Source of the DNA: Streptomyces sp. PH10-H1
Lineage (GTDB): Bacteria; Actinomycetota; Actinomycetes; Streptomycetales; Streptomycetaceae
NCBI RefSeq assembly: GCF_030063355.1
Contig: NZ_JASISZ010000005.1
Coordinates: 62,001 to 126,000 of the forward strand
Reading direction: 5' to 3'
Length of the DNA stretch: 64,000 bases
In this document: positions 27,729 to 39,531 of the stretch, piece after piece
Layout of the letters: each line of letters starts with the position of its first letter
Position numbering within the stretch: the first letter of the stretch is position 1
Notes under the pieces: model-generated
What the model was told of the DNA's origin: nothing
The model's database searches: none
Seen by the model: only the letters and a program-made list of their open reading frames with translations
Position numbers and translations under genes: made by a program

Positions 27729-28466
27729 GTGCGGTCATTCGTCCCGCGATCCGTCCTCAGCGCGTCCGTCGGTTCCCGGTTCACGGTGGGAACCGCCCTC
27801 GTCATCGGTGCCCTCGCGGTGACGCTCGTGGCGCTGTTGATCCCCATGCAGAAGTTCGGCGGGCAGAGTTCCGCGGCGGTTGCCGGCCCGATCGCGGACG
27901 ACGGCGGCGGGACGGTGAACACGCCGTCCGGACCGCTGACACCCATCGACCGGGAATTCATCCGGAAGGTCCGGCTCGCCGGGCTGTGGGAGTTCCCCGC
28001 CGGGCAACAGGCTCAGCAGCGCGGTACGCAGGAATCGGTCAGAATCGCGGGCACCCATCTCATCGAGGGGCACACCGAGCTGGACATGCGGGTCAACGCG
28101 GTGGGCAAGGCCCTCGGCGTCGACCTGCCCAGCCAGCCCAGCAAGGAGCAGCAGGGCTGGCTCTCCCAGCTCGACGGTGCTCAAGGGGCCGACTACGACC
28201 GGCTGTTCGTCAATCTCCTGCGCCGTGCGCACGGAAAGGTGTTCGCGCTCGTGGCGCAGGTGCGGGGGCAGACCCGTAACACCATGGTCCGGTCCCTGGC
28301 CACGCGGGCCAATGCCGTGGTCCTCGACCACATCTCGGTTCTCGAGGACACCGGGCTCGTCGACTTCGGCGCGCTCGCCGACGGGAGCACGCCCTCCTCC
28401 GGGAAGCCCGTGGTCATCATCACGGCTTCCGCTTCGACTCCGGAACGACGAAGTGAAGTGAAGTGA
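27729..28466 (+). CDS. DUF4142-domain exported protein
   Basis: A 245-residue protein with an N-terminal membrane/signal segment (GTALVIGALAVTLVALLIPM, about residues 21-40) and a ferritin-like helical DUF4142 domain: LTPIDREFIRKVRLAGLWEF, GTHLIEGHTELDMRVNAVGK, DYDRLFVNLLRRAHGKVFAL and TRANAVVLDHISVLEDTGLV. DUF4142 proteins usually have paired His/Glu positions in these helices, which are present here (H in LIEGHTELD and RRAHGKVF). Start is GTG 27729 with a perfect AAGGAGG 5 nt upstream. It is separated from the DUF1996 gene by only 4 nt, so the pair is an operon. Likely extracytoplasmic; biochemical role unknown. Confidence 0.82.
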   Translation: MRSFVPRSVLSASVGSRFTVGTALVIGALAVTLVALLIPMQKFGGQSSAAVAGPIADDGGGTVNTPSGPLTPIDREFIRKVRLAGLWEFPAGQQAQQRGTQESVRIAGTHLIEGHTELDMRVNAVGKALGVDLPSQPSKEQQGWLSQLDGAQGADYDRLFVNLLRRAHGKVFALVAQVRGQTRNTMVRSLATRANAVVLDHISVLEDTGLVDFGALADGSTPSSGKPVVIITASASTPERRSEVK

Positions 28467-28470
28467 TCTC

Positions 28471-29961
28471 ATGAGTCAGAAGGACCATAAACGCTCCCGT
28501 CTGCCCAACAAGGCCGTCGCGGTGCTCGCCGCGTTGGTGTTGGGCAGCGGGGGGGCCGCGTTCATCGCGGCGAACGCCTCCGCCGGCAACGCGACGCCGG
28601 ACGCCGGGCAGACGCAGTCGGTGACGGGGGCGGGGACGGGAGCGGCCACCATCGCCTGTCCCGATGTGGGCGACCAGCTGCAAACCGTCCCGGAAGAGGC
28701 CAAGCCGGCGGTCGATCAGAATCTCGCACAACTCGACGCGCAGGTCGCGGATTCGTACAAACAGATGGCGTCCGGGCAGTCGGACAGCGCCTCCTTGCTC
28801 AGTAATCTGCAACAGGAGCGCAGCGGGACGATCACCCGCATCTCCGATGCGATAGCCCAGGTGTCCGAACCCCCCGCCGGGCTCGATGCGTTGAGCACCT
28901 GCCAGATGAAACCCGCCGACAGCGCGGGCGCGCAGAGCGACCCCAATGCCGCGCAGAACCAGCAGAGCCAGCAGAACGTTCAGAACGGGCAGGTAGCGCA
29001 GAACGGCCAAGGTACGCCGAACTCGCCGAACTCGCAGAACTCGCAGAGCGCGCAGGCCCCGCAAGCGCAGAGCCAGGGCAAGGGCCCGTCGCGTGCCGAC
29101 TTCGTCGACATCACCAAGGTCAGGCCGAACGTGAAGGCGCCCCGCGCCGGGGCCGGCGCCTCCACCGGCACCTTCGCCTCGAAGTGCGGCCGCAACGAGA
29201 ACGGGCACCTCAACCCCGACAACGTCATCGTCGCACCCGGTGTGAGCAATGGCGCCCACCATATGCACGACTACGTGGGCAACAAAACCACGGATGCCTT
29301 CTCCACCAATGACAGTCTCGCCGCAGCGGGCACGACCTGCAGCAACGGAGACCAGTCCGCCTACTACTGGCCGGTGCTGCGGGTGCAGAACGGCGGTCAG
29401 GAGAACGACGCCAACGCGCCCGGCGGCGGCCAGGACGCCAACGTCGGCAAGATCCTGCAGCCCAAGAACGTCACGATCCAGCTGAACGGCAGCCCGGTCG
29501 GCAAGGTGACGGCGATGCCGCGCTTCCTGCGGATCATCACCGGCGATGCCAAGGGCTTCACCAACGGCACGGCCAATACCAACGCCTCATGGAGCTGCAC
29601 CGGTTTCGAGAACCGCCAGCTGAAGGACAAGTACCCGATCTGCCCGCAGGGCAGCGACGTGGTGCGCACCTTCACCTTCCAGAGCTGCTGGGACGGAAAG
29701 AACATCGACAGCGCCAACCACCGGACGCATGTCGCTTTCGCGGACGCGAACGGCGCCTGCGGGCAGGGCTTCAAGGCGATCCCGCAGCTGGTGGAGCGGA
29801 TCACCTACAGCGTCCCGAAGGGTGCACGGATCGCGGTGGACAGTTTCCCGGAGCAGTTGCACAAGCCGGTGACCGACCATGGTGACTTCATCGACGCGAT
29901 GTCGGACAGCCTGATGAAGAAAGCCGTGAACTGCATCAACGGCGGCCGCAAGTGCGCGTGA
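28471..29961 (+). CDS. DUF1996-domain secreted protein
   Basis: A 496-residue exported protein. The N-terminus is a signal peptide (NKAVAVLAALVLGSGGAAFI, cleavage near NASAGN). Residues about 55-150 are helical; about 150-215 are an Asn/Gln/Ser-rich linker (QNQQSQQNVQNGQVAQNGQG). The DUF1996 domain fills the rest, with the diagnostic SNGAHHMHDYVGNKTTDAFS, then SAYYWPVLRVQNGG, SWSCTGFENRQLKDKYPICP and the HRTHVAF segment, plus several paired Cys that suggest disulfides in the exported domain. Clustered His (AHHMHD) could bind metal. A GAAGTGA-type ribosome site lies 5 nt upstream of the ATG. It is followed by a strong terminator at 30074-30107. Confidence 0.87.
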   Translation: MSQKDHKRSRLPNKAVAVLAALVLGSGGAAFIAANASAGNATPDAGQTQSVTGAGTGAATIACPDVGDQLQTVPEEAKPAVDQNLAQLDAQVADSYKQMASGQSDSASLLSNLQQERSGTITRISDAIAQVSEPPAGLDALSTCQMKPADSAGAQSDPNAAQNQQSQQNVQNGQVAQNGQGTPNSPNSQNSQSAQAPQAQSQGKGPSRADFVDITKVRPNVKAPRAGAGASTGTFASKCGRNENGHLNPDNVIVAPGVSNGAHHMHDYVGNKTTDAFSTNDSLAAAGTTCSNGDQSAYYWPVLRVQNGGQENDANAPGGGQDANVGKILQPKNVTIQLNGSPVGKVTAMPRFLRIITGDAKGFTNGTANTNASWSCTGFENRQLKDKYPICPQGSDVVRTFTFQSCWDGKNIDSANHRTHVAFADANGACGQGFKAIPQLVERITYSVPKGARIAVDSFPEQLHKPVTDHGDFIDAMSDSLMKKAVNCINGGRKCA

Positions 29962-30316: not shown

Positions 30317-31213
30317 GTGCTTGGCTCTCGCGAAGCCCCGGACGACCATCAACGCGCGGGCGAGCAGGAGGCCGGCGGGCAGGAAGCCGGGCCCACCGAC
30401 GGGGAACTGACCTCCCATGAGCATCTGCCCGCCGGCAAGCAGCTTCCCTCCGACCAGGAGTTGCCCTCCGACGAGGAGCTCACCCGGCAGCTCAAGGACG
30501 GCTACGGCTCAGGCACCGCGAACCCCGCCGCGGGCGACATCCTGTACCGCCGTCACCGCGAGGCCACCCTCGCGTACGCGCGCAGGTGCTGCCGCGACCC
30601 TCACGACGCCGAGGACCTCGTGTCGGAGGCATTCATCCGCACCTTCCAGGCCGTCCGCGCCGGGGCCGGTCCGCAGGGGGCCTGGCGGTCGTATCTGCTG
30701 GCCGTCGTCCGGCACACGGCCATCGAGTGGAGCGCCGGCGAGCAGAAAGCGCTTCCGACGCCGGACTTCGAGTCCTGCCGGCAGCAGTCGTCCGCCGGAA
30801 CCGACCCCCAGCAACACCTGCTGGCCAGCGAGGATCGTCAGCGGCTCGTCCGCAGCTTCAACACACTGCCCGAGCGCTGGCAGGCCGTCCTGTGGCACAC
30901 CCTCGTCGAGAACGGTTCCCCCCACGAGGTCGCGACCCTGCTGGGCATCACCCCAAGTGGTGTGACCTCCTTGGCCTTTCGCGCCCGTGAAGGGCTGCGC
31001 GCCGCCTATCTGCACGCCCACCTGGACGGCGTGGACGACGACCGGTGCCGTCATTTCAGCGCCATGATCGGCACGGCGATACGGCGCGGCGGTACCGCCC
31101 ACAGCCGTGATCTCGCACGGCATCTGGCGGGCTGCGCGTCCTGCTCGAGGGCCTACGCCGAACTGCTCGCCCTCAACGCGACGATGCGCGCGGCGGTCGC
31201 CGCCGGACTGTAA
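30317..31213 (+). CDS. ECF-type RNA polymerase sigma factor with a C-terminal zinc-finger-like motif
   Basis: A sigma-70-family regulator of about 298 residues. Region 2 is visible as LYRRHREATLAYARRCCRDP...AEDLVSEAFIRTFQAV, and region 4 as LPERWQAVLWHTLVENGSPH with the helix-turn-helix EVATLLGITPSGVTSLAFRA. Beyond region 4 the protein continues with CRHFSAMIGTAI and HSRDLARHLAGCASCSRAYAEL, an H-x3-C-x2-C arrangement like the zinc-binding anti-sigma (zf-HC2) motif, so the control domain may be built in; no separate anti-sigma gene is adjacent. An acidic, Gln/Glu-rich leader (ELTSHEHLPAGKQLPSDQEL) precedes region 2. GTG 30317 is chosen for GAGGTG 6 nt upstream; GTG 30302 is an alternative. Confidence 0.8.
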   Translation: MLGSREAPDDHQRAGEQEAGGQEAGPTDGELTSHEHLPAGKQLPSDQELPSDEELTRQLKDGYGSGTANPAAGDILYRRHREATLAYARRCCRDPHDAEDLVSEAFIRTFQAVRAGAGPQGAWRSYLLAVVRHTAIEWSAGEQKALPTPDFESCRQQSSAGTDPQQHLLASEDRQRLVRSFNTLPERWQAVLWHTLVENGSPHEVATLLGITPSGVTSLAFRAREGLRAAYLHAHLDGVDDDRCRHFSAMIGTAIRRGGTAHSRDLARHLAGCASCSRAYAELLALNATMRAAVAAGL

Positions 31214-31393: not shown

Positions 31394-32464
31394 TCAGAGT
31401 CCGTTGACCCGCGCTTCCCTCGCGACGACCAGCGGCCGGAAGCCCGCCGTGACCGTTCGCGCCCTGCGGGTCACCCGGGAATGCCGGAGCCCTATCTGCG
31501 CCATCAGCCGGCGGCTGCGGAGCGCCATCTCCAGCTCGAAGCGGGTGCGCGGGTCCCGCAGTCCCTGACCGAAGAGCTTCTCCAGCTGGCGCATGCGGTA
31601 GCGCACCGTCTGGGGGTGCACATTCAGCGCCTTCGCCGCCTCGGGTGCTCCCCCGCCCTCGAGCCAGGCGAGCAAGGTCACCTCCAGCCGCTCGCTCTGC
31701 CGTGGCGTCAGTCCTGCCAGCGGCCGCAGCCAGCGGGCCGCCAACGCCTTGGCCAGCGGCTCGTCCTGAAGGAGCAACAGGGTCGAGAGGTGATCGTCGA
31801 CGAAGACGACCCGGGCGTCCGGGCCTACGGACGCGGGGGTCAGGTTCAGCAGGCGACGTGCCCAGCGCAGTGACGAACCGGCGTCACGCAGCGGGACTGC
31901 GTGTCCGGCCGCGGCGGAACGGCCGCGCAGAGCGGCCTCCAGTGCGCCACGGGTGTCCGGGTCGGAGCTCGGTATCAGCAGGCATGGCCCGTCGGCGCCC
32001 ATGCCGACAAGGCAGCCCTCCAGGGCCGCCGCCAGCTGCTGCGTCTCACCCGGAGTGGCGAGAGCGACGGCCCGTACCGTCTCGGGGAGCGGCCAGCCGG
32101 CCTGCCGGGCCAGCTCCGGGAGCGAAGCCGCTGATACGGCCGCGCCACCGGTCAGCGCCTGGAACAGGTCCTGGCGTGCCCGGTCGAGTGGTGCCGGGGT
32201 GGCGGGCGGCACCTGGTCACGGTCGCCGTCCTTCTCCGGCTTCCGGTAGCCGAGCGCGGTCAGCAGAGCCTCTTCGAGCCCCTGCCGGACCATTTCACGG
32301 CCCATGTCTTCCAGAAGGTCGGCAAAGCCGGGAATTTCATGCCGAAGCACCTCGACCATCTGATCGGCCAGTGACGGGAGTTCTTTACGCAGAACGCGGG
32401 TCCACTCGCCACGGGGGAGGGACCAGATGCGGTTCAGAAGTTCGCACATCTCTACCTCGTTCAT
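31394..32464 (-). CDS. PucR/CdaR-type transcriptional regulator
   Basis: A 356-residue DNA-binding protein. The C-terminus is the PucR helix-turn-helix (HTH_30): LEVTLLAWLEGGGAPEAAKA, NVHPQTVRYRMRQLEKLFG, RDPRTRFELEMALRSRRLMA. The central part is the GGDEF-like/CdaR-type fold (VVFVDDHLSTLLLLQDEPLA). The N-terminal about 120 residues are a helical input domain (ELLNRIWSLPRGEWTRVLRK, then IPGFADLLEDMGREMVRQGL) typical of streptomycete PucR-like proteins. Start at ATG 32464; ATG 32449 with GAGGT upstream is an alternative. It is divergent from the membrane-protein/NuoF-ferredoxin operon and is the natural candidate to regulate it. Confidence 0.85.
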   Translation of the reverse strand: MNEVEMCELLNRIWSLPRGEWTRVLRKELPSLADQMVEVLRHEIPGFADLLEDMGREMVRQGLEEALLTALGYRKPEKDGDRDQVPPATPAPLDRARQDLFQALTGGAAVSAASLPELARQAGWPLPETVRAVALATPGETQQLAAALEGCLVGMGADGPCLLIPSSDPDTRGALEAALRGRSAAAGHAVPLRDAGSSLRWARRLLNLTPASVGPDARVVFVDDHLSTLLLLQDEPLAKALAARWLRPLAGLTPRQSERLEVTLLAWLEGGGAPEAAKALNVHPQTVRYRMRQLEKLFGQGLRDPRTRFELEMALRSRRLMAQIGLRHSRVTRRARTVTAGFRPLVVAREARVNGL

Positions 32465-32585
32465 GCCGGGGTAAGACCTGCCTGAGGGGAGGACAGGTCT
32501 TGCGGAGGTTGCCTCCATCGCCGGTCGTACTCTCCGGCAAGGGAGTTGAGGGTCCTCCTGCACCCTCCTAGAGGTTGCTTCCCGC

Positions 32586-32664
32586 TGACGGTCCCGGGGT
32601 TTTGCCCCGTCTTTACCGTCAGGGTGCGGCCGGTCCGGTTTAGACCCGAGTCCGGCTGAACCGG
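32586..32664. promoter_or_regulatory. Structured region in the divergent PucR / electron-transfer spacer
   Basis: Two successive dyads: TGACGGT (32586-32592) with ACCGTCA (32615-32621), enclosing CGGGG/CCCCG; and CCGGTTTAG (32635-32643) with CTGAACCGG (32656-32664, one wobble). The 540-nt spacer (32465-33004) contains no gene. The dyads could be leader-RNA structures for the PucR transcript or operators. This is a sequence observation only. Confidence 0.4.
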
Positions 32665-32722
32665 AAGCACTTGGTTGAGCATCTTCCGCAGTTGCGCACC
32701 GTGACGACGACGCAGGAGCGAG

Positions 32723-32733
32723 AACTTGTCACA
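32723..32733. promoter_or_regulatory. Motif AACTTGTCACA shared with the lipoprotein promoter region
   Basis: AACTTGTCACA here is the exact reverse complement of TGTGACAAGTT at 35650-35660, upstream of the PF03640 lipoprotein. Both copies sit in intergenic DNA of the same putative electron-transfer locus, so they may bind a common regulator (PucR-type protein at 31394, or a sigma factor). Confidence 0.4.
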
Positions 32734-33004
32734 ATGCGATAAATCTTGTGGAGATGCTGGGAAGTTCGGCGATGCTGCTGCACCCCGGCCACTGCTCACC
32801 GGATATGGAGGCGATCCCTCCAACACCCGCGCCGGAGCCGGTCGGACCGCCGTTGAGCGCCGGCGACCTCCGGCCGCTTATGCCCCGGTGCGGCCCGTGC
32901 CGCCCTGGGCTCACCGCTGCCGCCGGGCAGCACCGACACCAACCCCCTGGGCTCCGGGTACGACTTGGAGTGCTCGGCACCCCCGCGCTCGGGAGGCTTT
33001 CCTT

Positions 33005-34033
33005 ATGCCCTTGTCCCAGATGCAGTTGCCCCACTCGAACAACCCGGACAACTCGAACAACCCCAACCGCGCGCACCCCTTCACCGGCGGAACCAACGGA
33101 ACCAACGTGACCGGCGCGACCAGTTCACACCGGTCGCGCCGAAGGAGACGCCATGCCGGAGCGGTCCCGGCCGGCGGGCGGCGGGCCGTCCACCGGCCGC
33201 CACTGCTGTCCGGAGCCGCCGGGCTCCGTCCCGGCACGATCAGCGCTCTCGTCCTGGTAGTCCTCATCTCCCTGACCGTCGCGGGCAACGCGGGGGCCTT
33301 CACCCGGACTTGGGAGTTCCTGGACTACGGAGCGGGAGTGCTCTCGCTCGTCTCGCTCACTGGCACCGTGCTGTGGGGACTGGCCGCCACCGACCGGCTG
33401 TTGCTGCACTCCAGCCACCGGCTGCTCGCCCAGGGCGTGCACCGTGGCCTGGCGACCGCGGGATTCGGCTTCCTCGCCCTGCACATCTGGGTGAAGGTCC
33501 AGAACCAGGAGACCAGCGCGACCGCGGCGGGCGTGCCCTTCACCGACGCCCACCAACCGCTGCTGATCGGGCTCGGCACACTCGCCGGATATCTCTTCCT
33601 GACGGTGGCGGCGACCGGCGCGGTGCGCAGCGCATTCGCCTCCGGCGGGCGGTCCCACTGGTGGCGGGCCCTGCACATGGGCGCGTATCCGGCATGGGGC
33701 GCGTCACTGGTGCACGGCCTCAAGTCCGGGCGGCCCGCGAGCGGCTGGGTGACGGTGGCGTACGCCCTGTGCCTGGCCGGCGTCGCCGTCGTGCTCGCCG
33801 TACGACTCAGGTCCAGACGGCGCGGAGTGGCCGCGCGGCGCAACGCCGTATCGCCCCCCGACCTCCGGATCGTCCCACCGCCCGAGCCGGAGTACCCACC
33901 GCGTGCCGCCGCCTACGCGGCGCGCCAGGGGGCGGAACGCATGGAGCGGTTCGGCCGACGGTTCGATGCCCCGACCCAGCAGTTCGACCCTCCGACTCAA
34001 CGGTTCGACAGCTCGACCGGATGGCGGCCGTGA
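33005..34033 (+). CDS. Polytopic His-rich membrane protein, putative b-type cytochrome/ferric-reductase-like
   Basis: A 342-residue protein. The first about 75 residues are hydrophilic, Asn/Thr/Pro-rich then Arg-rich; about six helices follow (about 79-98, 110-129, 149-165, 185-207, 215-232, 240-258). Histidines sit at helix ends in pairs suited to haem: LLLHSSHRLLAQGVHRG, FLALHIWVKV, DAHQPLLIG, HWWRALHMGAYPAWG, SLVHGL. This layout resembles ferric-reductase-like/cytochrome b transmembrane domains. The cytoplasmic tail has an imperfect repeat FDAPTQQFDPPTQRFDSSTG. ATG 33005 has GGGAGG 8 nt upstream. Its stop overlaps the NuoF-ferredoxin start by 4 nt, so the two products probably work as one electron-transfer unit. 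Haem binding is inferred, not shown. Confidence 0.65.
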   Translation: MPLSQMQLPHSNNPDNSNNPNRAHPFTGGTNGTNVTGATSSHRSRRRRRHAGAVPAGGRRAVHRPPLLSGAAGLRPGTISALVLVVLISLTVAGNAGAFTRTWEFLDYGAGVLSLVSLTGTVLWGLAATDRLLLHSSHRLLAQGVHRGLATAGFGFLALHIWVKVQNQETSATAAGVPFTDAHQPLLIGLGTLAGYLFLTVAATGAVRSAFASGGRSHWWRALHMGAYPAWGASLVHGLKSGRPASGWVTVAYALCLAGVAVVLAVRLRSRRRGVAARRNAVSPPDLRIVPPPEPEYPPRAAAYAARQGAERMERFGRRFDAPTQQFDPPTQRFDSSTGWRP

Positions 34034-35502
34034 CCGGCATCCGTCCCGCGCTCGGCTGTGTGGGACCGCCTCGGCTCCTCGCGGGTCTGGACGAGGTGGC
34101 GCGGGTGGACCGCGTCACGCATCTGACCGTGCACGGTTCGCTGCCCCTGCTCCGGCTGGACGAGCTGGTGGCGCTCGCCGAGAACATCGACCTGCGCGGC
34201 CGCGGCGGAGCGGGCTTTCCCTTCGCCCGGAAATTGCGGGCGGTGACCCGGTCGGCCCGCGACCGGGACGGGCGCACGGCAGTCGTCGTCAACGGCAGTG
34301 AAGGCGAACCGGGTTGCCTCAAGGACACGGCACTGCTGCTGCACGTCCCGCATCTGGTGCTCGACGGCGCCCTGCTGGCCGCCACGGCACTGGGCGCCGA
34401 GGAGGTCGTCCTCGGCGTGACCCGGCCCGACGTCGAGCAGTCGGTCCGCGACGCCATCGCAGAACGCGGCCCGGTCGGCCGTACCCTCCGGGTGGCCCGG
34501 CTGCCCGAGCGCTTCGTCACCGGGGAAGGGTCCGCTCTCCTCAGCGGGCTGAACCACGGTCCCGCTCTGCCTTCCGGACGTGCGGTCCGCTCGAGCGACC
34601 GGGGCCTCAATGGCCTGCCCACCTTGCTGTCCAACACCGAGACGTACGCCCAACTCGCCATCGCGGCCAGGCTCGGCGCCCTCGACTTCCGCGCGACCGG
34701 GCTGCCGACCGAACCCGGCACGATCCTGGTGACCGTCGCCGGATCCTCGGTCATGGAGACGCCGAGCGGGGTGCCGCTGACCTACGTCCTGGAACTGTGC
34801 GGCACCGGCCCCGGCCAGGGCGTCCTGGTCGGCGGCTACCACGGCAAATGGCTGGACCCGTATGCCGCGAAGGCGGCGGAGATCTCCCGGGAATCCCTGG
34901 CCACGTTCGGCGCCGTGCTCGGAGCGGGAGCGGTGCTGCCGCTCCCCGAGGACACCTGCCCGGTCGGCGAGATCCTGCGGGTGACACGCTGGATGGCGGG
35001 TGAGTCGGCAGGCCAGTGCGGGCCCTGTGTACTGGGGCTGCCCGCGCTCGCCGACACCATCGAACAAGCCGCCCACGGAGGCGGACTGGCCGCCCTGGAC
35101 GCGGTACACGCACGCCTGCGAGCGGTCAGACGCCGTGGCGCCTGCAGCCACCCCGACGGCACATCGAACTTCGTGGAGTCGGGACTCGCCGCGTTCCCCG
35201 ACGACTTCGAGGACCACGCGCTCGGCAGCGGCTGCGGCCGGCCGGTCCTCGGGATCCTCCCGCTGCCCGCCGACGAGACCACGGTCGGGCCACCCGCTGA
35301 AGAGCGCACCGAGCGGCTGGTCGTGGACTGGACCCTATGCCAAGGGCACGGGCTCTGCGTGGACATCCTCCCCGAGGTCGTCCGGCTCGACGCCGACGGC
35401 TTTCCGACGCAGGCGTCGATGGAGCTGCCCGCACGGCTGCGCCCGAAGGCGCTGCGCGCGATACGGCGCTGCCCAGCCCTCGCACTGCGCATCCAAGAAT
35501 AG
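34030..35502 (+). CDS. NuoF-like flavo-iron-sulfur protein fused to a single-cluster ferredoxin
   Basis: A 490-residue protein combining two modules. Residues about 50-370 follow the 51-kDa/NuoF plan: LRGRGGAGFPFARKL and VVNGSEGEPGCLKDTAL for FMN, the GLPTLLSNTETYAQLA segment, a SLBB-like stretch, and the iron-sulfur site ESAGQCGPCVLGLPALADT with a downstream RRRGAC. Only three Cys of the usual four-Cys N3 set are obvious at the expected spacing (QCGPC...GAC), with one more Cys further on (GSGCGRPV). From about 427 a ferredoxin follows: WTLCQGHGLCVDILPEVVRL...IRRCPALAL, the C-x2-H-G-x-C...CP pattern of streptomycete P450-type [3Fe-4S] ferredoxins. No NuoE partner is present. GTG 34030 gives a GTGA overlap; ATG 34021 is also possible. 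Confidence 0.8.
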   Translation: MTGIRPALGCVGPPRLLAGLDEVARVDRVTHLTVHGSLPLLRLDELVALAENIDLRGRGGAGFPFARKLRAVTRSARDRDGRTAVVVNGSEGEPGCLKDTALLLHVPHLVLDGALLAATALGAEEVVLGVTRPDVEQSVRDAIAERGPVGRTLRVARLPERFVTGEGSALLSGLNHGPALPSGRAVRSSDRGLNGLPTLLSNTETYAQLAIAARLGALDFRATGLPTEPGTILVTVAGSSVMETPSGVPLTYVLELCGTGPGQGVLVGGYHGKWLDPYAAKAAEISRESLATFGAVLGAGAVLPLPEDTCPVGEILRVTRWMAGESAGQCGPCVLGLPALADTIEQAAHGGGLAALDAVHARLRAVRRRGACSHPDGTSNFVESGLAAFPDDFEDHALGSGCGRPVLGILPLPADETTVGPPAEERTERLVVDWTLCQGHGLCVDILPEVVRLDADGFPTQASMELPARLRPKALRAIRRCPALALRIQE

Positions 35503-35649
35503 GGCAGCAGCAAGGCCAATGGGGCCGCCGACAATGCGCCGACGGCCCGGCCGACCATGCGCCGGTGAAGAGAATGACCGCCGCAGATAATTCCCGCCGC
35601 CGCGACTTCAAGCGTCGCGCCGCCGCACATCGTTCGGTTTTTTGCCTGA

Positions 35650-35660
35650 TGTGACAAGTT
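35650..35660. promoter_or_regulatory. Motif TGTGACAAGTT upstream of the PF03640 lipoprotein
   Basis: An 11-bp match, in inverse orientation, to the motif at 32723-32733. It lies 87 nt before the lipoprotein ATG, in a relatively AT-rich stretch (TTTTTTGCCTGATGTGAC). Candidate operator or promoter element. Confidence 0.4.
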
Positions 35661-35746
35661 TTGAATCCGCTGAACGCCAACCGCCGTGCCTCCCGTATCC
35701 ATTACCGACGGCGCGAAGCCGCCGGACCGAACGTGAAGGAGCGATC

Positions 35747-36721
35747 ATGGTAAACAGGCGTCGTGCGGTATTCGCTGGAGCGGCCACCGTGGTCTTTCTG
35801 CTGACAGCAGGGTGCAGCAGCAACGGAAAGACCGGCAACACCGCCCAGGAAAACCATGTCCAACCCGCGGGAGACAGCAAGGACATCGGGACCGGCTACG
35901 GCACGGATTACGGTTCGAGCGGCTATGGAACGGGCGGCTCGAGCTCCGCGCCGAGTGCGGAAAAGAAGGGTGAGGCGGCCAAGGTGCTGGCGGTGCGGAG
36001 CGATGGCAAGCTGGGGCCCATCGTCACCGACAGCAAGGGCTTCACCCTCTACAGGTTCGACAAGGACACGGCCCAGCCGTCCAAGTCCAACTGCGTCGGC
36101 GCCTGCGCCATCACCTGGCCGGCCGTTCCGGCGGACGACGCCTCCGCTTCCGCGGGCATCAAGCCCGAGCTGCTGGGTGAGGTCGCCCGGGCGGACGGTT
36201 CCCGGCAGCTGACCCTGGCGGGCTGGCCTGTGTACCGCTACGCCATGGACACCCAGGCCGGCGACACAAAGGGCCACGGTGTGGGCGGGACCTGGAACGC
36301 GCTGGCGCCCGACGGCAAGAAGGCCGGACAGCAGGCCGCCGGCCAGGCCCAGGACAGCGGTATGGAGCTCGCGGTCACCGACAACGCCCAACTCGGAAAG
36401 ATCATCGTGGACGGGCAGTGGAGGACCCTCTACCGGTTCAACAAGGACAGCGCCTGGCCGATGAAGTTCGGCTGTGTCGGCGCCTGCCTGGACACCTGGA
36501 AGCCCGCCAAGCCTGTCGACAAGACCAAGGTGAGCGGCGTGGCCACCAAGCTGGTCGGCACGGTGACACGGCCCGACGGAACGAAGCAGCTCGCCATCAA
36601 CTGCTGGCCGGTCTACTGGTTCACCGGGGACTTGAAGCCCGGTGACATCAACGGCCAGGGCAAGATGGGTCTGTGGTTCGCGGTTACTCAAGGCGGCAAG
36701 AAGGCTGGAACTGGTTCCTAG
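35747..36721 (+). CDS. SCO0930-type lipoprotein with two or more PF03640 secreted repeats
   Basis: A 324-residue lipoprotein. The lipobox is LLTAGC (Cys at about residue 23). A Tyr/Gly/Ser-rich linker (GTGYGTDYGSSGYGTGGS) leads to PF03640 'secreted repeat of unknown function' units: KGFTLYRFDKDTAQPSKSNC plus VGACAITWPAV, the paired half VGEVARADGSRQLTLAGWPV-like segment YRYAMDT, and a second set WRTLYRFNKDSAWPMKFGC...GACLDTWKPA with INCWPVYWFTGD. Each unit holds a C-x3-C pair followed by TW, and all known family members are exported. AAGGAG lies 6 nt upstream of the ATG. The position after the membrane protein and NuoF-ferredoxin suggests an extracytoplasmic partner of that pathway. Confidence 0.87.
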   Translation: MVNRRRAVFAGAATVVFLLTAGCSSNGKTGNTAQENHVQPAGDSKDIGTGYGTDYGSSGYGTGGSSSAPSAEKKGEAAKVLAVRSDGKLGPIVTDSKGFTLYRFDKDTAQPSKSNCVGACAITWPAVPADDASASAGIKPELLGEVARADGSRQLTLAGWPVYRYAMDTQAGDTKGHGVGGTWNALAPDGKKAGQQAAGQAQDSGMELAVTDNAQLGKIIVDGQWRTLYRFNKDSAWPMKFGCVGACLDTWKPAKPVDKTKVSGVATKLVGTVTRPDGTKQLAINCWPVYWFTGDLKPGDINGQGKMGLWFAVTQGGKKAGTGS

Positions 36722-36868
36722 AACCGGCGGCCCATGGTGTCATTTCGCACGGGAATGTCCAGGCGCCCCGGTCACCGCGCCAGGATATCCCCGTGCGGGC
36801 ACCGGGAACTGAGCCGAACTGGAACTGAGCCGAATAAGACGAATTCCGACCGAAGCAATGAGGTTGAT

Positions 36869-37303
36869 GTGCCGAATCTGAGACTTCGACGAGTCATCAC
36901 GGCGCTCTGCGTGGTCCTGTTGAGCGGCTGCTCCGGTAATTCCCCCACGAAAAGCCACGTAGCGGCAGATCCCGTCCCCACGCAAAGCCATGTTGCGACC
37001 GGTCCCGCCTCCATACAACAGATCGCCGCCGTCATCCGCTGCACAGCCAAAATCAGCGTTGACGCAACAGAACTGCGCCAAGGAGCGTGCAGGACCGATC
37101 AGGGCGAGTACCGCATGCTCACCTTCGCGGCGGACACCGGGCAGAAATCCTGGCTGACGGAGGCCCAGATGTACGGCGGCATCTACCTCGTAGGGAAGCG
37201 CTGGGTCGTCACGGCCCAGTCGCAGGAAGCCCTGCAAGGACTGCGCGCCGTGCTCGGCGGAACCATCGAGACGGGGGCCGATCACACCGGCCACCATGGC
37301 TGA
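36869..37303 (+). CDS. Small putative lipoprotein
   Basis: A 144-residue exported protein. GTG 36869 is preferred because GAGG lies 5-8 nt upstream and a signal peptide follows at once (LRLRRVITALCVVLLSGC, with the lipobox VLLSGC). The mature part begins with a Thr/Ser/Ala-rich linker and an imperfect repeat (KSHVAADPVPTQSHVATGP), then a compact alpha/beta domain (AVIRCTAKISVDATELRQGA, SWLTEAQMYGGIYLVGKRWV). Two Cys (IRCTAK and GACRTD) may form a disulfide. It ends with HTGHHG. No family is recognised. It follows the PF03640 lipoprotein by 147 nt and may share its expression. Confidence 0.65.
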   Translation: MPNLRLRRVITALCVVLLSGCSGNSPTKSHVAADPVPTQSHVATGPASIQQIAAVIRCTAKISVDATELRQGACRTDQGEYRMLTFAADTGQKSWLTEAQMYGGIYLVGKRWVVTAQSQEALQGLRAVLGGTIETGADHTGHHG

Positions 37304-37343: not shown

Positions 37344-38393
37344 CTACGGCTGGCCGCCGCGCCCCGCCGCACGGCTCGGCTGTACCCGCTTGGGCTCACC
37401 CGGCATCTTCGGGTAGTCCGGCGGGTACGGCATGTCCCCGAGACCGCGTTCGTGTTCATCGCGGTCGGCGAGCTCCAGGAGGGGCTCCAGACCGTACGAC
37501 TCTTCCTCCATGTCCGCGTGCACGTCGCCGAGTTCGGCGTAGCGCTTGGGCATCGTGGACAGGTCGAAGTCCCGCGGCTGCACGTCGTCGAGCTCGGCCC
37601 AGCGCAATGGCGCCGACACCGGAGCATGCGGTTTCGGGCGGATCGAATAGGCGGAGGCCATCGTGCGGTCGCGGGCGGTCTGGTTGAAGTCGACGAAGAT
37701 CCGAGCGCCGCGCTCCTCCTTCCACCAGGAGGTGGTGACCCGGCCCTCCATGCGGCGCTCCAGCTCACGCCCGACGGCGATCGCGGCGCGCCGGACCTCG
37801 GTGAAGGTCCACTGAGCCTTGATCGGCACGAAGACGTGAAGCCCGCGCCCGCCGGACGTCTTGGGCCAGCCAGTCATCCCCAACTCCTGCAGCAACGACC
37901 GGAGTTCATGGGCAACGGCGACCGCGTCCGTGAAGTCGGTGCCGGGCTGGGGGTCGAGGTCGATACGGAGTTCGTCCGGGTGGTCGGGCCGGCCGGACCG
38001 TACCGCCCATGGATGAAAGGTCAGACACCCCAGATTCGCCGCCCAGAGGACGGCGGCCGGTTCGGTCGGGCACACCTCGTCGGCGGTGCGGCCACTGGGG
38101 AAGGTGATCCGGGCCGACGGGATCCAGTCGGGCAGGTTCTTGGGGGCCCGCTTCTGATAGAAGGACTCGCCCTCGACGCCGTGGAGATAGCGCTCCATGG
38201 TGGTCGGGCGGTCGCGCAGCGCGCGCGTAATGCCGTCCGCGACGGCCAGGTAGTACCTGGCCACGTCCAGCTTGGTGTAGCCGCGTTCCGGGAAGTACAC
38301 CTTGTCCGGGCTGGACAGCCGTACGGTCCGGCCGCCGACCTCCAGCTCCACCGCCTCGCCCTTGCCGATGTCCTTGCCGTCGCCCTTGCCCAT
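37344..38393 (-). CDS. LigD-type primase/polymerase domain protein (NHEJ)
   Basis: A 349-residue stand-alone PolDom (archaeo-eukaryotic primase fold) protein that fills and extends DNA or RNA ends during non-homologous end joining. The domain begins VRLSSPDKVYFPERGYTKLD, with YYLAVADGITRALRDRP. The catalytic acidic pair is in ELRIDLDPQPGTDF, and the conserved TSGGRGLHVFVPI and ARIFVDFNQTARDRTMASAY (third acidic residue) follow. Length and layout match the separate polymerase proteins of streptomycetes rather than full LigD. ATG 38393 is chosen at the conserved start; an in-frame ATG at 38492 would overlap the divergent ligase gene. Ku is not in the window. Confidence 0.9.
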   Translation of the reverse strand: MGKGDGKDIGKGEAVELEVGGRTVRLSSPDKVYFPERGYTKLDVARYYLAVADGITRALRDRPTTMERYLHGVEGESFYQKRAPKNLPDWIPSARITFPSGRTADEVCPTEPAAVLWAANLGCLTFHPWAVRSGRPDHPDELRIDLDPQPGTDFTDAVAVAHELRSLLQELGMTGWPKTSGGRGLHVFVPIKAQWTFTEVRRAAIAVGRELERRMEGRVTTSWWKEERGARIFVDFNQTARDRTMASAYSIRPKPHAPVSAPLRWAELDDVQPRDFDLSTMPKRYAELGDVHADMEEESYGLEPLLELADRDEHERGLGDMPYPPDYPKMPGEPKRVQPSRAAGRGGQP

Positions 38394-38448
38394 GCACGCC
38401 ACGGTAGGCGAAGGGCGCGAAGGTCGCATATCGGCAATAATCGGATGC

Positions 38449-39531
38449 ATGGATCTACCGGTCATGCCGCCCGTGAAGCCGATGCTCGCCAAGTCCGTGG
38501 CAAAGATTCCGCCCGGTATGCAGTACGAGGCGAAGTGGGACGGGTTCCGGGCGATCGTGCACCGCGACGGGGACGAGCTGGTGATCGGCAGCCGTACCGG
38601 AAAGCCGCTGACCCGCTACTTTCCCGAGCTGGCCGAGGCGCTCCTGGACCAGCTGCCGGCGCGCTGCGTCATGGACGGCGAGATCGTCATCGCCCATGAC
38701 GGACGGCTGGACTTCGACCGGCTCACCGAACGCATCCACCCCGCCGAATCCCGCGTCAAGCTCCTCGCCGAGCAGACTCCGGCGAGCTTCATCGCCTTCG
38801 ATCTGCTGGCTCTCGGCGACGAGTCCCTGCTGGACCGTCCACTGGCCGAACGGCGCCCCGCCCTCGCCGAAGCCCTCTCGGGGGCCCTCGCCCCTGTCCA
38901 TCTGGCGCCTGCCACCACCGATATCGCGGTGGCCCGGGAGTGGTTCGAGCGGTACGAGGGCGCCGGTCTCGACGGAGTGATCGCCAAGCCGCTCGATCTC
39001 CCGTACCGGCCGGACGCCCGTCTGATGTGCAAGATCAAGCATGAACGGACCGCCGATGCGGTGGTCGCCGGGTACCGCCACCACAAGAGCGGGCCCATCG
39101 TCGGCTCGCTCCTCCTCGGCTTGTACGACGACTCGGGCGTACTGCAGCACGTGGGCGTCTGCGCGGCCTTCTCGATGAAGCGCCGCGAGGAACTGGTGGC
39201 CGAGCTGGAACCGCTGCGGATGGACGACCCGGTGGCCGGCGGCCACCCCTGGGCGGCGTGGACGGACGAGTCGGCCCATGAGGGCGCCCGGCTGCCCGGC
39301 GCGACCAGCCGCTGGACCGGCAAGAAGGACCTCTCGTGGGTGGCGCTCCGCCCGGAGAGGGTCGCGGAGGTGGCGTACGACCACATGGAGGGCGACCGGT
39401 TCCGGCACACCGCGCAGTTCCGACGCTGGCGCCCGGACCGCTCCCCCGACAGCTGTACGTACTCCCAGCTGGAGGAACCGCTCCGGTACGACCTCGCCGA
39501 GGTGCTGTCGGGCGAGTCGGCCGGTGAGTGA
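38449..39531 (+). CDS. ATP-dependent DNA ligase (LigC-like)
   Basis: A 360-residue ligase that seals breaks with ATP. The nucleotidyltransferase motif I is YEAKWDGFRAIV with the adenylated Lys29; motif III/IIIa is ASFIAFDLLAL, motif IV appears as GLDGVIAKPLDLPY, and motif V as CKIKHERTADAVV. The OB-fold domain follows (GSLLLGLYDDSGVLQHVGVC). The compact size, lacking polymerase and nuclease domains, is that of actinobacterial LigC. The start is 55 nt from the divergent polymerase gene, so they share a short bidirectional promoter and are likely co-expressed as an accessory end-joining or base-repair pair. Confidence 0.92.
   Translation: MDLPVMPPVKPMLAKSVAKIPPGMQYEAKWDGFRAIVHRDGDELVIGSRTGKPLTRYFPELAEALLDQLPARCVMDGEIVIAHDGRLDFDRLTERIHPAESRVKLLAEQTPASFIAFDLLALGDESLLDRPLAERRPALAEALSGALAPVHLAPATTDIAVAREWFERYEGAGLDGVIAKPLDLPYRPDARLMCKIKHERTADAVVAGYRHHKSGPIVGSLLLGLYDDSGVLQHVGVCAAFSMKRREELVAELEPLRMDDPVAGGHPWAAWTDESAHEGARLPGATSRWTGKKDLSWVALRPERVAEVAYDHMEGDRFRHTAQFRRWRPDRSPDSCTYSQLEEPLRYDLAEVLSGESAGE

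Follow-up and report, generated by a model that had tools for sequence, protein, structure and literature searches.

We analyzed a gene cluster in a 64,000-nucleotide stretch of the 8.5-Mb draft genome of Streptomyces sp. PH10-H1 (contig NZ_JASISZ010000005.1, positions 62,001 to 126,000), hereafter called the window, which may encode a transmembrane electron-transfer system that connects NAD(P)H with exported proteins. At its center are two forward-strand genes that overlap by 13 bases; the first (window positions 33005 to 34033) encodes a membrane protein with homology to ferric-reductase-like (FRD) proteins such as MsrQ, and the second (34021 to 35502) encodes a fusion of a NuoF-like protein with a ferredoxin domain (NuoF-Fd). 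Located on the same strand are the genes for a DUF4142 protein (27729 to 28466) and, 4 bases farther on, a DUF1996 protein (28471 to 29961), both upstream, and for a lipoprotein of the PF03640/SCO0930 family (35747 to 36721; NF040526, 397 bits; four PF03640 stretches; lipobox C23) and a second, small lipoprotein (36869 to 37303; GTG start, lipobox C21), both downstream. A PucR-type regulator (PF13556, 66 bits) is encoded on the reverse strand at 31394 to 32464, divergently from the redox genes, and a simple scan of the intergenic region between the PucR and FRD genes (32465 to 33004) identified no sigma-70-type promoter. A previous sequence-only reading had proposed an undescribed electron-transfer system composed of a PucR regulator, a His-rich membrane protein, a NuoF-ferredoxin fusion, a PF03640 lipoprotein with C-x3-C units, and a second lipoprotein. 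All members of this gene set were confirmed. The PucR gene was found just to the left of the span to which the system had been assigned (32465 to 37303), and the list of partners, correct for the PF03640 lipoprotein, had missed the most widely linked partners, namely, DUF4142 and DUF1996, which lie upstream (27729 to 29961).

Relatives were fetched with a profile of 18 NuoF-Fd sequences, and the best 80 of 539 loci were named and divided into two groups, clade A (40 loci, among them L115 of Streptomyces lavendulae CCM 3239; 64 to 78% identity over the best segment) and clade B and the like (40 loci, 54 to 62% identity). A third group, clade C, is the most distant (32 to 37% identity); all clade names are our own. 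Genes were called with a home-made GC3 script method, the FRD and NuoF labels were merged in gene clustering, and their adjacency there was judged by eye. Counts for clade A include only loci with enough flank, the flanks of clade B were mostly 8 kb (six of the 40 loci fell short of 8 kb on one side), and locus L208, which had no usable gene calls, was not counted.

The window FRD protein matched neither a Pfam family at an E value of 0.1 nor an NCBIfam family. Its membership in the FRD superfamily (PF01794) is indicated indirectly by its clade C homologues, to which it aligned with E values of 4.2e-20 to 9.6e-13 and of which all six scanned were above the PF01794 cutoff (31 to 35 bits versus 28). 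One of the two clade B FRD proteins scanned scored 15 bits, below the cutoff, and the other gave no match, as did the single protein scanned from another family. A PDB sequence search with a profile of 19 FRD sequences returned no match at an E value of ≤1. Within the genus of the window, a sequence search detected FRD homologues in 14 of 35 genomes, including that of the window. The six helices of the sequence-only reading are to be expected from the homology to PF01794, on which the count rests, but a simple hydropathy scan resolved only four clear hydrophobic segments.

Four histidines of this protein, H146 (33440 to 33442), H160 (33482 to 33484), H224 (33674 to 33676), and H237 (33713 to 33715), are the expected heme ligands and were invariant in all 86 sequences of an alignment that comprised the window protein, 38 clade A sequences, 38 clade B sequences (two clade B loci that gave no FRD match are not represented), and 9 clade C sequences (one from each of 9 of the 10 loci; L045, with a merged FRD gene call, was omitted). 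The members of each pair are spaced by 14 (146/160) and 13 (224/237) positions, in agreement with the histidine pairs that the FRD superfamily has in TM3 and TM5 and the same as in NOX2, for which a passage in Zhang et al. (2013, PMC3591440) gives the heme pairs His-101/115 and His-209/222. Judged from this spacing and from homology, the window protein would bind two b-hemes, which agrees with the b-type membrane protein that had been proposed; the heme-compatible histidines are seen here as spacing in the sequence. The protein belongs to the same superfamily as the bacterial YedZ/MsrQ short forms and likewise lacks a dehydrogenase domain of its own. The bacterial short forms are described in the same article as having mostly two or three of the four histidines and probably a single heme, whereas the short form of the window retains all four, like the long forms that carry FAD/NAD domains. 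In contrast to these long forms, it would take its dehydrogenase in trans.

The NOX2-like pattern of four histidines and two hemes, together with a NuoF-Fd protein that could supply the NAD(P)H dehydrogenase, raises the alternative that the pair is an NAD(P)H oxidase, in which the outer heme would pass electrons to O2 to form superoxide, as in NOX, and the exported proteins would handle oxidants. In accordance, deletion of DUF1996 genes in Beauveria is reported in the abstract of PMC4738358 to increase the sensitivity to oxidation and to several metal ions. However, NOX enzymes have an additional conserved histidine, His-119, four residues past His-115 (PMC3591440), and its equivalent is K164 in the window protein and lysine in 77 of the 86 aligned sequences, so that by this residue the protein falls outside the NOX subgroup. 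The lysine argues for the reductase type, and owing to K164 we set NOX-type oxygen reduction aside as the first choice and regard the oxidase as quite improbable.

NuoF-Fd was above the cutoffs of PF01512, PF10589, and PF13459, with an FMN/NADH domain at residues 55 to 212, an iron-sulfur (Fe-S) region at 319 to 399, and a ferredoxin domain at 434 to 491 (about 35320 to 35493). It scored 138 bits with the NuoF equivalog TIGR01959, far under the cutoff of 559, and is therefore, by its sequence, a relative of NuoF and not the NuoF of complex I. The FMN/NADH domain and the Fe-S region are common to both, but NuoF-Fd additionally carries the C-terminal ferredoxin domain, and the NuoE family gave no match among the 15 window genes scanned. 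The earlier description of a NuoF-like/ferredoxin fusion without NuoE that is coupled to the membrane gene thus held; among 38 clade A loci, with start codons picked by script, 30 likewise show an overlap of the two genes. Aligned with the four cysteines of Escherichia coli NuoF that we take to be the ligands of cluster N3, NuoF-Fd retains only three; C351 is replaced by A330 in the window protein, and by alanine or serine in all five FRD-linked proteins aligned. C333, C336, and C375 are invariant in 18 of 18 clade A NuoF-Fd sequences, and the same is true for C440, H443, C446, and C484 of the ferredoxin domain. The latter is of the single-cluster type (PF13459, 49 bits versus a cutoff of 22) and presumably resembles the ferredoxins that serve P450 enzymes. 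In E. coli NuoF, E183 limits the use of NADPH and so governs the choice between NADH and NADPH; in the window protein this position is G170, and the loss of the glutamate suggests that NuoF-Fd may use NADPH. In the literature searched, we found no paper on NuoF with E183 and NADPH.

The pairing of an FRD protein with a NuoF-like protein is already in print. In the part of their article concerned with MsrQ-like flavinylation-associated gene clusters, Méheust et al. (2021, PMC8238504) count 31 with a NuoF-like protein (PF10589), describe the MsrQ-like clusters as broadly conserved in Actinobacteria, and propose that these use cytosolic NAD(P)H. An FRD/MsrQ-like membrane protein and a NuoF-like protein are thus shared with the window, in which, in contrast, the ferredoxin is fused to NuoF and the partners are DUF4142, DUF1996, and PF03640 proteins. 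Clade C, with ApbE, FRD, NuoF, and a separate ferredoxin, looks like the published type; all 10 clade C loci from the genus of the window contain ApbE, as do two of the four readable nonfused loci elsewhere. These clade C loci (L044 to L053) often lie behind a two-component system, three of their ApbE sequences, inspected by eye, showed no clear signal peptide, and FMN_bind was matched by none of the six small proteins scanned that are encoded upstream. When six-frame open reading frames from the window and from 40 clade A loci were searched with a clade C ApbE profile, no ApbE was found at an E value of ≤1e-3, and the sole ApbE match in the genome of the window is on another contig. FMN_bind (PF04205), for which only this draft genome was searched, gave no match at an E value of ≤0.001. 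We therefore rejected a flavinylated system for the window. Since clusters with FRD and NuoF have been published, yet the window form lacks ApbE in the cluster and FMN_bind in the genome, it is a variant of the known type, and the label "undescribed" applies to the form without these two genes and not to the pairing as such. Apart from the NuoF passage in the 2021 article, a literature search that left most subscription journals uncovered found no title or abstract opening on this gene set.

In clade A, the cluster was found to be highly conserved. FRD was present in 37 of 37 loci, the PucR-type regulator in 36 of 37, and the PF03640 lipoprotein downstream of NuoF-Fd in 37 of 38, whereas upstream DUF4142 was detected in 33 of 34 and upstream DUF1996 in 31 of 34. 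In the sole locus without the lipoprotein, L132 of Wenjunlia, it is DUF4142 that lies downstream of NuoF-Fd. Two members are variable. The small lipoprotein, which the sequence-only reading had counted as a component and which is indeed present in the window, was recovered by blastp from only 19 of 35 loci, although this search may overlook a protein so short and divergent. A sigma-70 region 2 protein (30317 to 31213, +; PF04542, 45 bits; extracytoplasmic function type by eye), encoded in the window between the DUF1996 and PucR genes, was found in 11 of 34. Two loci from another genus of the same family carry the pair with the same exported genes, in a different order in L094 and in the core order of the window, but without a PucR gene, in L101.

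A NuoF-Fd relative was detected at an E value of ≤1e-45 in 142 of 394 genomes spread over the class. When fused NuoF-Fd rows of the same genomes at an E value of ≤1e-120 were counted by eye from the listings, DUF1996 (E value of ≤1e-12) was located within about 6.5 kb of NuoF-Fd in 7 of 7 clade A rows, 0 of 25 clade B rows, and 15 of 18 rows from other families. Fifteen of the 18 other-family fused loci had the flanking pair of DUF4142 and DUF1996, which was upstream, downstream, or divergent, and all seven proteins scanned, from three loci, were confirmed by Pfam as the exported families with which they had been labeled. Over all loci, we distinguished by eye five orders of the core genes, namely, (i) that of the window, with DUF4142-DUF1996 upstream of FRD-NuoF-Fd and PF03640 after it, (ii) that of L094, (iii) PF03640-DUF4142-DUF1996-FRD-NuoF (e.g., L192), (iv) the pair transcribed divergently from all three exported genes (e.g., L191), and (v) FRD-NuoF-DUF4142-DUF1996 (L200 and L204). 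The same content in differing orders indicates that the linkage outlasts rearrangement; dozens of genomes share this gene content, and the set is not due to chance.

These data bear on the alternative that the cluster is a coregulated envelope-stress regulon, in which PucR and the sigma factor would induce both the exported proteins and a redox pair, the two acting independently of each other. The frequent PucR-type gene and the occasional sigma factor gene of clade A fit such a regulon, as does the existence of the exported genes in other contexts. However, other families keep the exported genes with the pair, and none of their loci was labeled by the PucR profile, the only regulator looked for. 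Shared PucR control thus does not explain the association, and we consider the regulon to have only a small chance of being correct.

Three of the 18 other-family loci, L193, L199, and L203, deviate from this pattern. L203 had neither the DUF partners nor thioredoxin/DsbD partners. In L193 and L199 (genomes G574 and G483), the pair is followed by a secreted thioredoxin-like protein, which has a WCATC motif, and by a DsbD/CcdA-type membrane protein (Pfam was run on L193 only), an arrangement that is possibly a thiol-redox version of the module. Sister modules are thus linked to other extracytoplasmic redox genes, either ApbE or, in 2 of the 18 other-family fused loci, genes for thioredoxin-like and DsbD-type proteins.

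Turning to the exported proteins, the PF03640 lipoprotein was above the cutoff of NF040526 ("SCO0930 family lipoprotein"; 396.6 bits versus 275). It contains two cysteine pairs, C116-x3-C120 and C243-x3-C247, and an extra C286. Its predicted model (m0e6fcd89e91f; mean pLDDT of 80, pTM of 0.48) has two confident domains (about residues 72 to 195 and 205 to 320), each of which holds one C-x3-C pair. No match was found for the model fold in the PDB at an E value of ≤0.001 or, using VIA-align over 902 chains, at a Z of 2 or more, nor for a profile of 38 lipoprotein sequences in a PDB sequence search at an E value of ≤1. The five cysteines were kept in 8 of 8 unlinked copies, and each was kept in 37 of 38 redox-linked sequences. 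They are thus, on the sequence evidence, a feature of the SCO0930 lipoprotein family, since linked and unlinked copies keep them alike, and the idea that the pattern is specific to redox-linked copies was dropped. Similarly, a general redox linkage of SCO0930-type lipoproteins, which were above the cutoff in 236 of 394 genomes of the family, was rejected: outside the cluster, eight copies were read (five from Streptomyces and three from the genus of the window), and these sit elsewhere, with no FRD or NuoF gene in the 8 to 15 kb read. By eye, the five Streptomyces copies adjoin sortase-like, GGDEF/EAL-type, and methyltransferase-like genes. SCO0930 itself, a family relative of the window gene, had raised expression in differentiated mycelium of S. 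coelicolor, according to a table in PMC3610822.

The DUF1996 protein (PF09362, 92 bits versus a cutoff of 27) has a signal-like N-terminal segment, and the DUF4142 protein (PF13628, 74 bits versus 27) has an N-terminal hydrophobic segment, both of which fit export or anchoring. In 33 DUF1996 sequences, H264-x-H266-D267, H420, and H470 were invariant. The predicted model (pLDDT of 61, pTM of 0.47) had no fold match in the PDB at an E value of ≤0.001, and a PDB sequence search with a profile of the 33 sequences returned six weak matches with unrelated names (best E value, 0.12). In DUF4142, H110, H115, H168, H201, E88, D119, D200, and E206 were each retained in 90% or more of 35 sequences; DUF305 was a second Pfam match, below the cutoff, and a PDB search with the window protein gave two matches (best E value, 0.85). 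In PMC11317620, a DUF4142 protein in a lanthanide-metallophore cluster is called ferritin-like. The Beauveria phenotypes, the ferritin-like label, and the DUF305 match are hints, none of them proof, of metal chemistry for DUF1996 and DUF4142. The small lipoprotein matched no family in Pfam and NCBIfam scans, and 90% or more of 21 sequences retained its C21. L211, L213, and L217 come from three genomes that carry clade B pairs; in each, a gene related to that of the small lipoprotein lies head-on beside a stand-alone DUF1996 gene, which suggests that the two belong together.

Whether the cluster forms a transmembrane electron-transfer system from NAD(P)H to the exported DUF4142, DUF1996, and PF03640 proteins is, in our judgment, an evenly balanced question. 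In such a system, the NuoF domain would oxidize NADH or NADPH with FMN in the cytoplasm, single electrons would pass from FMN through Fe-S centers to the fused ferredoxin domain, and this domain would reduce the inner b-heme of the FRD protein, from which they would cross to the outer b-heme. The latter would in turn reduce cofactors, most likely metal centers, of the exported DUF4142 and DUF1996 proteins, and the PF03640 lipoprotein would be a membrane-tethered carrier or a metal-handling partner. The gene coupling, the linkage to three exported families, the FRD class with its four histidines, and the NuoF and ferredoxin domains are all read from the sequences; what is inferred from them is that heme and Fe-S clusters are bound, which way the electrons flow, which protein accepts them, and that the chemistry involves a metal. 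The first half of the path follows from well-known families, and the acceptor step is suggested by linkage. Somewhat less than even is the chance that this is an undescribed, flavinylation-independent system in which a two-heme FRD protein and NuoF-Fd feed the DUF4142, DUF1996, and PF03640 proteins, for example, to reduce and handle iron or a different metal at the cell surface. PF03640, PF09362, and PF13628 are families of unknown function in Pfam, and being tied to one electron-transfer module makes their role testable in soil actinomycetes, which are harmless. If the reading is true, these families gain a function, and the FRD/NuoF input module serves more than one set of partners on the outside, which are flavinylation genes, thioredoxin and DsbD-type proteins, or the DUF trio.

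A number of observations weigh against electron transfer to these exported proteins. (i) FRD was present in 38 of 40 clade B loci, but PF03640, DUF4142, and DUF1996 were each found in none of the 40, and the other clade A partners were also absent from the flanks covered. The module can therefore work without partners or with unlinked ones. Conserved linkage between lipoprotein and redox genes, a test that the sequence-only reading had set beforehand, was thus confirmed in clade A and failed in clade B, and a linkage everywhere had to be rejected. (ii) PF03640 was present in only 8 of the 18 other-family fused loci. (iii) The gap between the NuoF-Fd and lipoprotein genes, 244 bases long in the window, is 113 to 403 bases in 36 of 37 loci, so that cotranscription is not assured. 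(iv) Stand-alone DUF1996 and PF03640 genes occur away from any redox gene. (v) In the DUF1996 and PF03640 models, neither of which had a structural match in the PDB, no cofactor-binding fold was recognized, so that folds offer no basis for proposing a cofactor site. (vi) In the Beauveria deletions, the sensitivity to Cu2+ is given as unchanged in PMC4738358, which counts against copper, at least there.

The persistence of the clade B pair without exported genes is what would be expected if the pair fed or drew on the quinone pool, either as a nonpumping NADH dehydrogenase or as an MsrQ-like quinone-linked protein, with the exported proteins as mere neighbors; MsrQ is described as quinone binding in a passage of PMC8238504. 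However, the linkage to DUF4142 and DUF1996 holds in five gene orders and across families, and mere neighborhood hardly explains it. A role limited to the quinone pool therefore appears unlikely to us.

In a maximum-likelihood tree of 59 NuoF proteins, rooted at the midpoint, clade B formed one clade beside clade A, and the lineages from other families, mostly DUF linked, were placed outside both. The simplest reading of the drawn tree is that the DUF association is old and was then lost in clade B. In this tree, every clade A row but L132 carried the label "D1996linked", even L130 and L138, which had no DUF1996 match, and clade B rows were in no label group, so that the label test says nothing on gain or loss in clade B.

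The genome of the window contains a second pair of FRD and NuoF-Fd genes (L034; G000:C111:270348-271820), which is of the clade B type, has a NuoF-Fd 63% identical to that of the window, and is without exported partners. In L034 and most of the clade B loci read, a gene that by eye resembles that for a leucyl-tRNA synthetase is located nearby. The same genome also has a second DUF4142-DUF1996 pair (L214; G000:C177:1-4000), next to which lies a gene that by eye resembles those for alpha/beta-hydrolases; nothing in the 9 kb read was labeled as FRD, NuoF, or PF03640. A gene similar in look to the hydrolase-like one (cluster c11) follows nine Streptomyces clade A clusters. To the right of the small lipoprotein gene, positions 37344 to 39531 of the window hold divergent genes for a LigD primase-polymerase and an ATP-dependent DNA ligase, an ordinary-looking end-joining repair pair.

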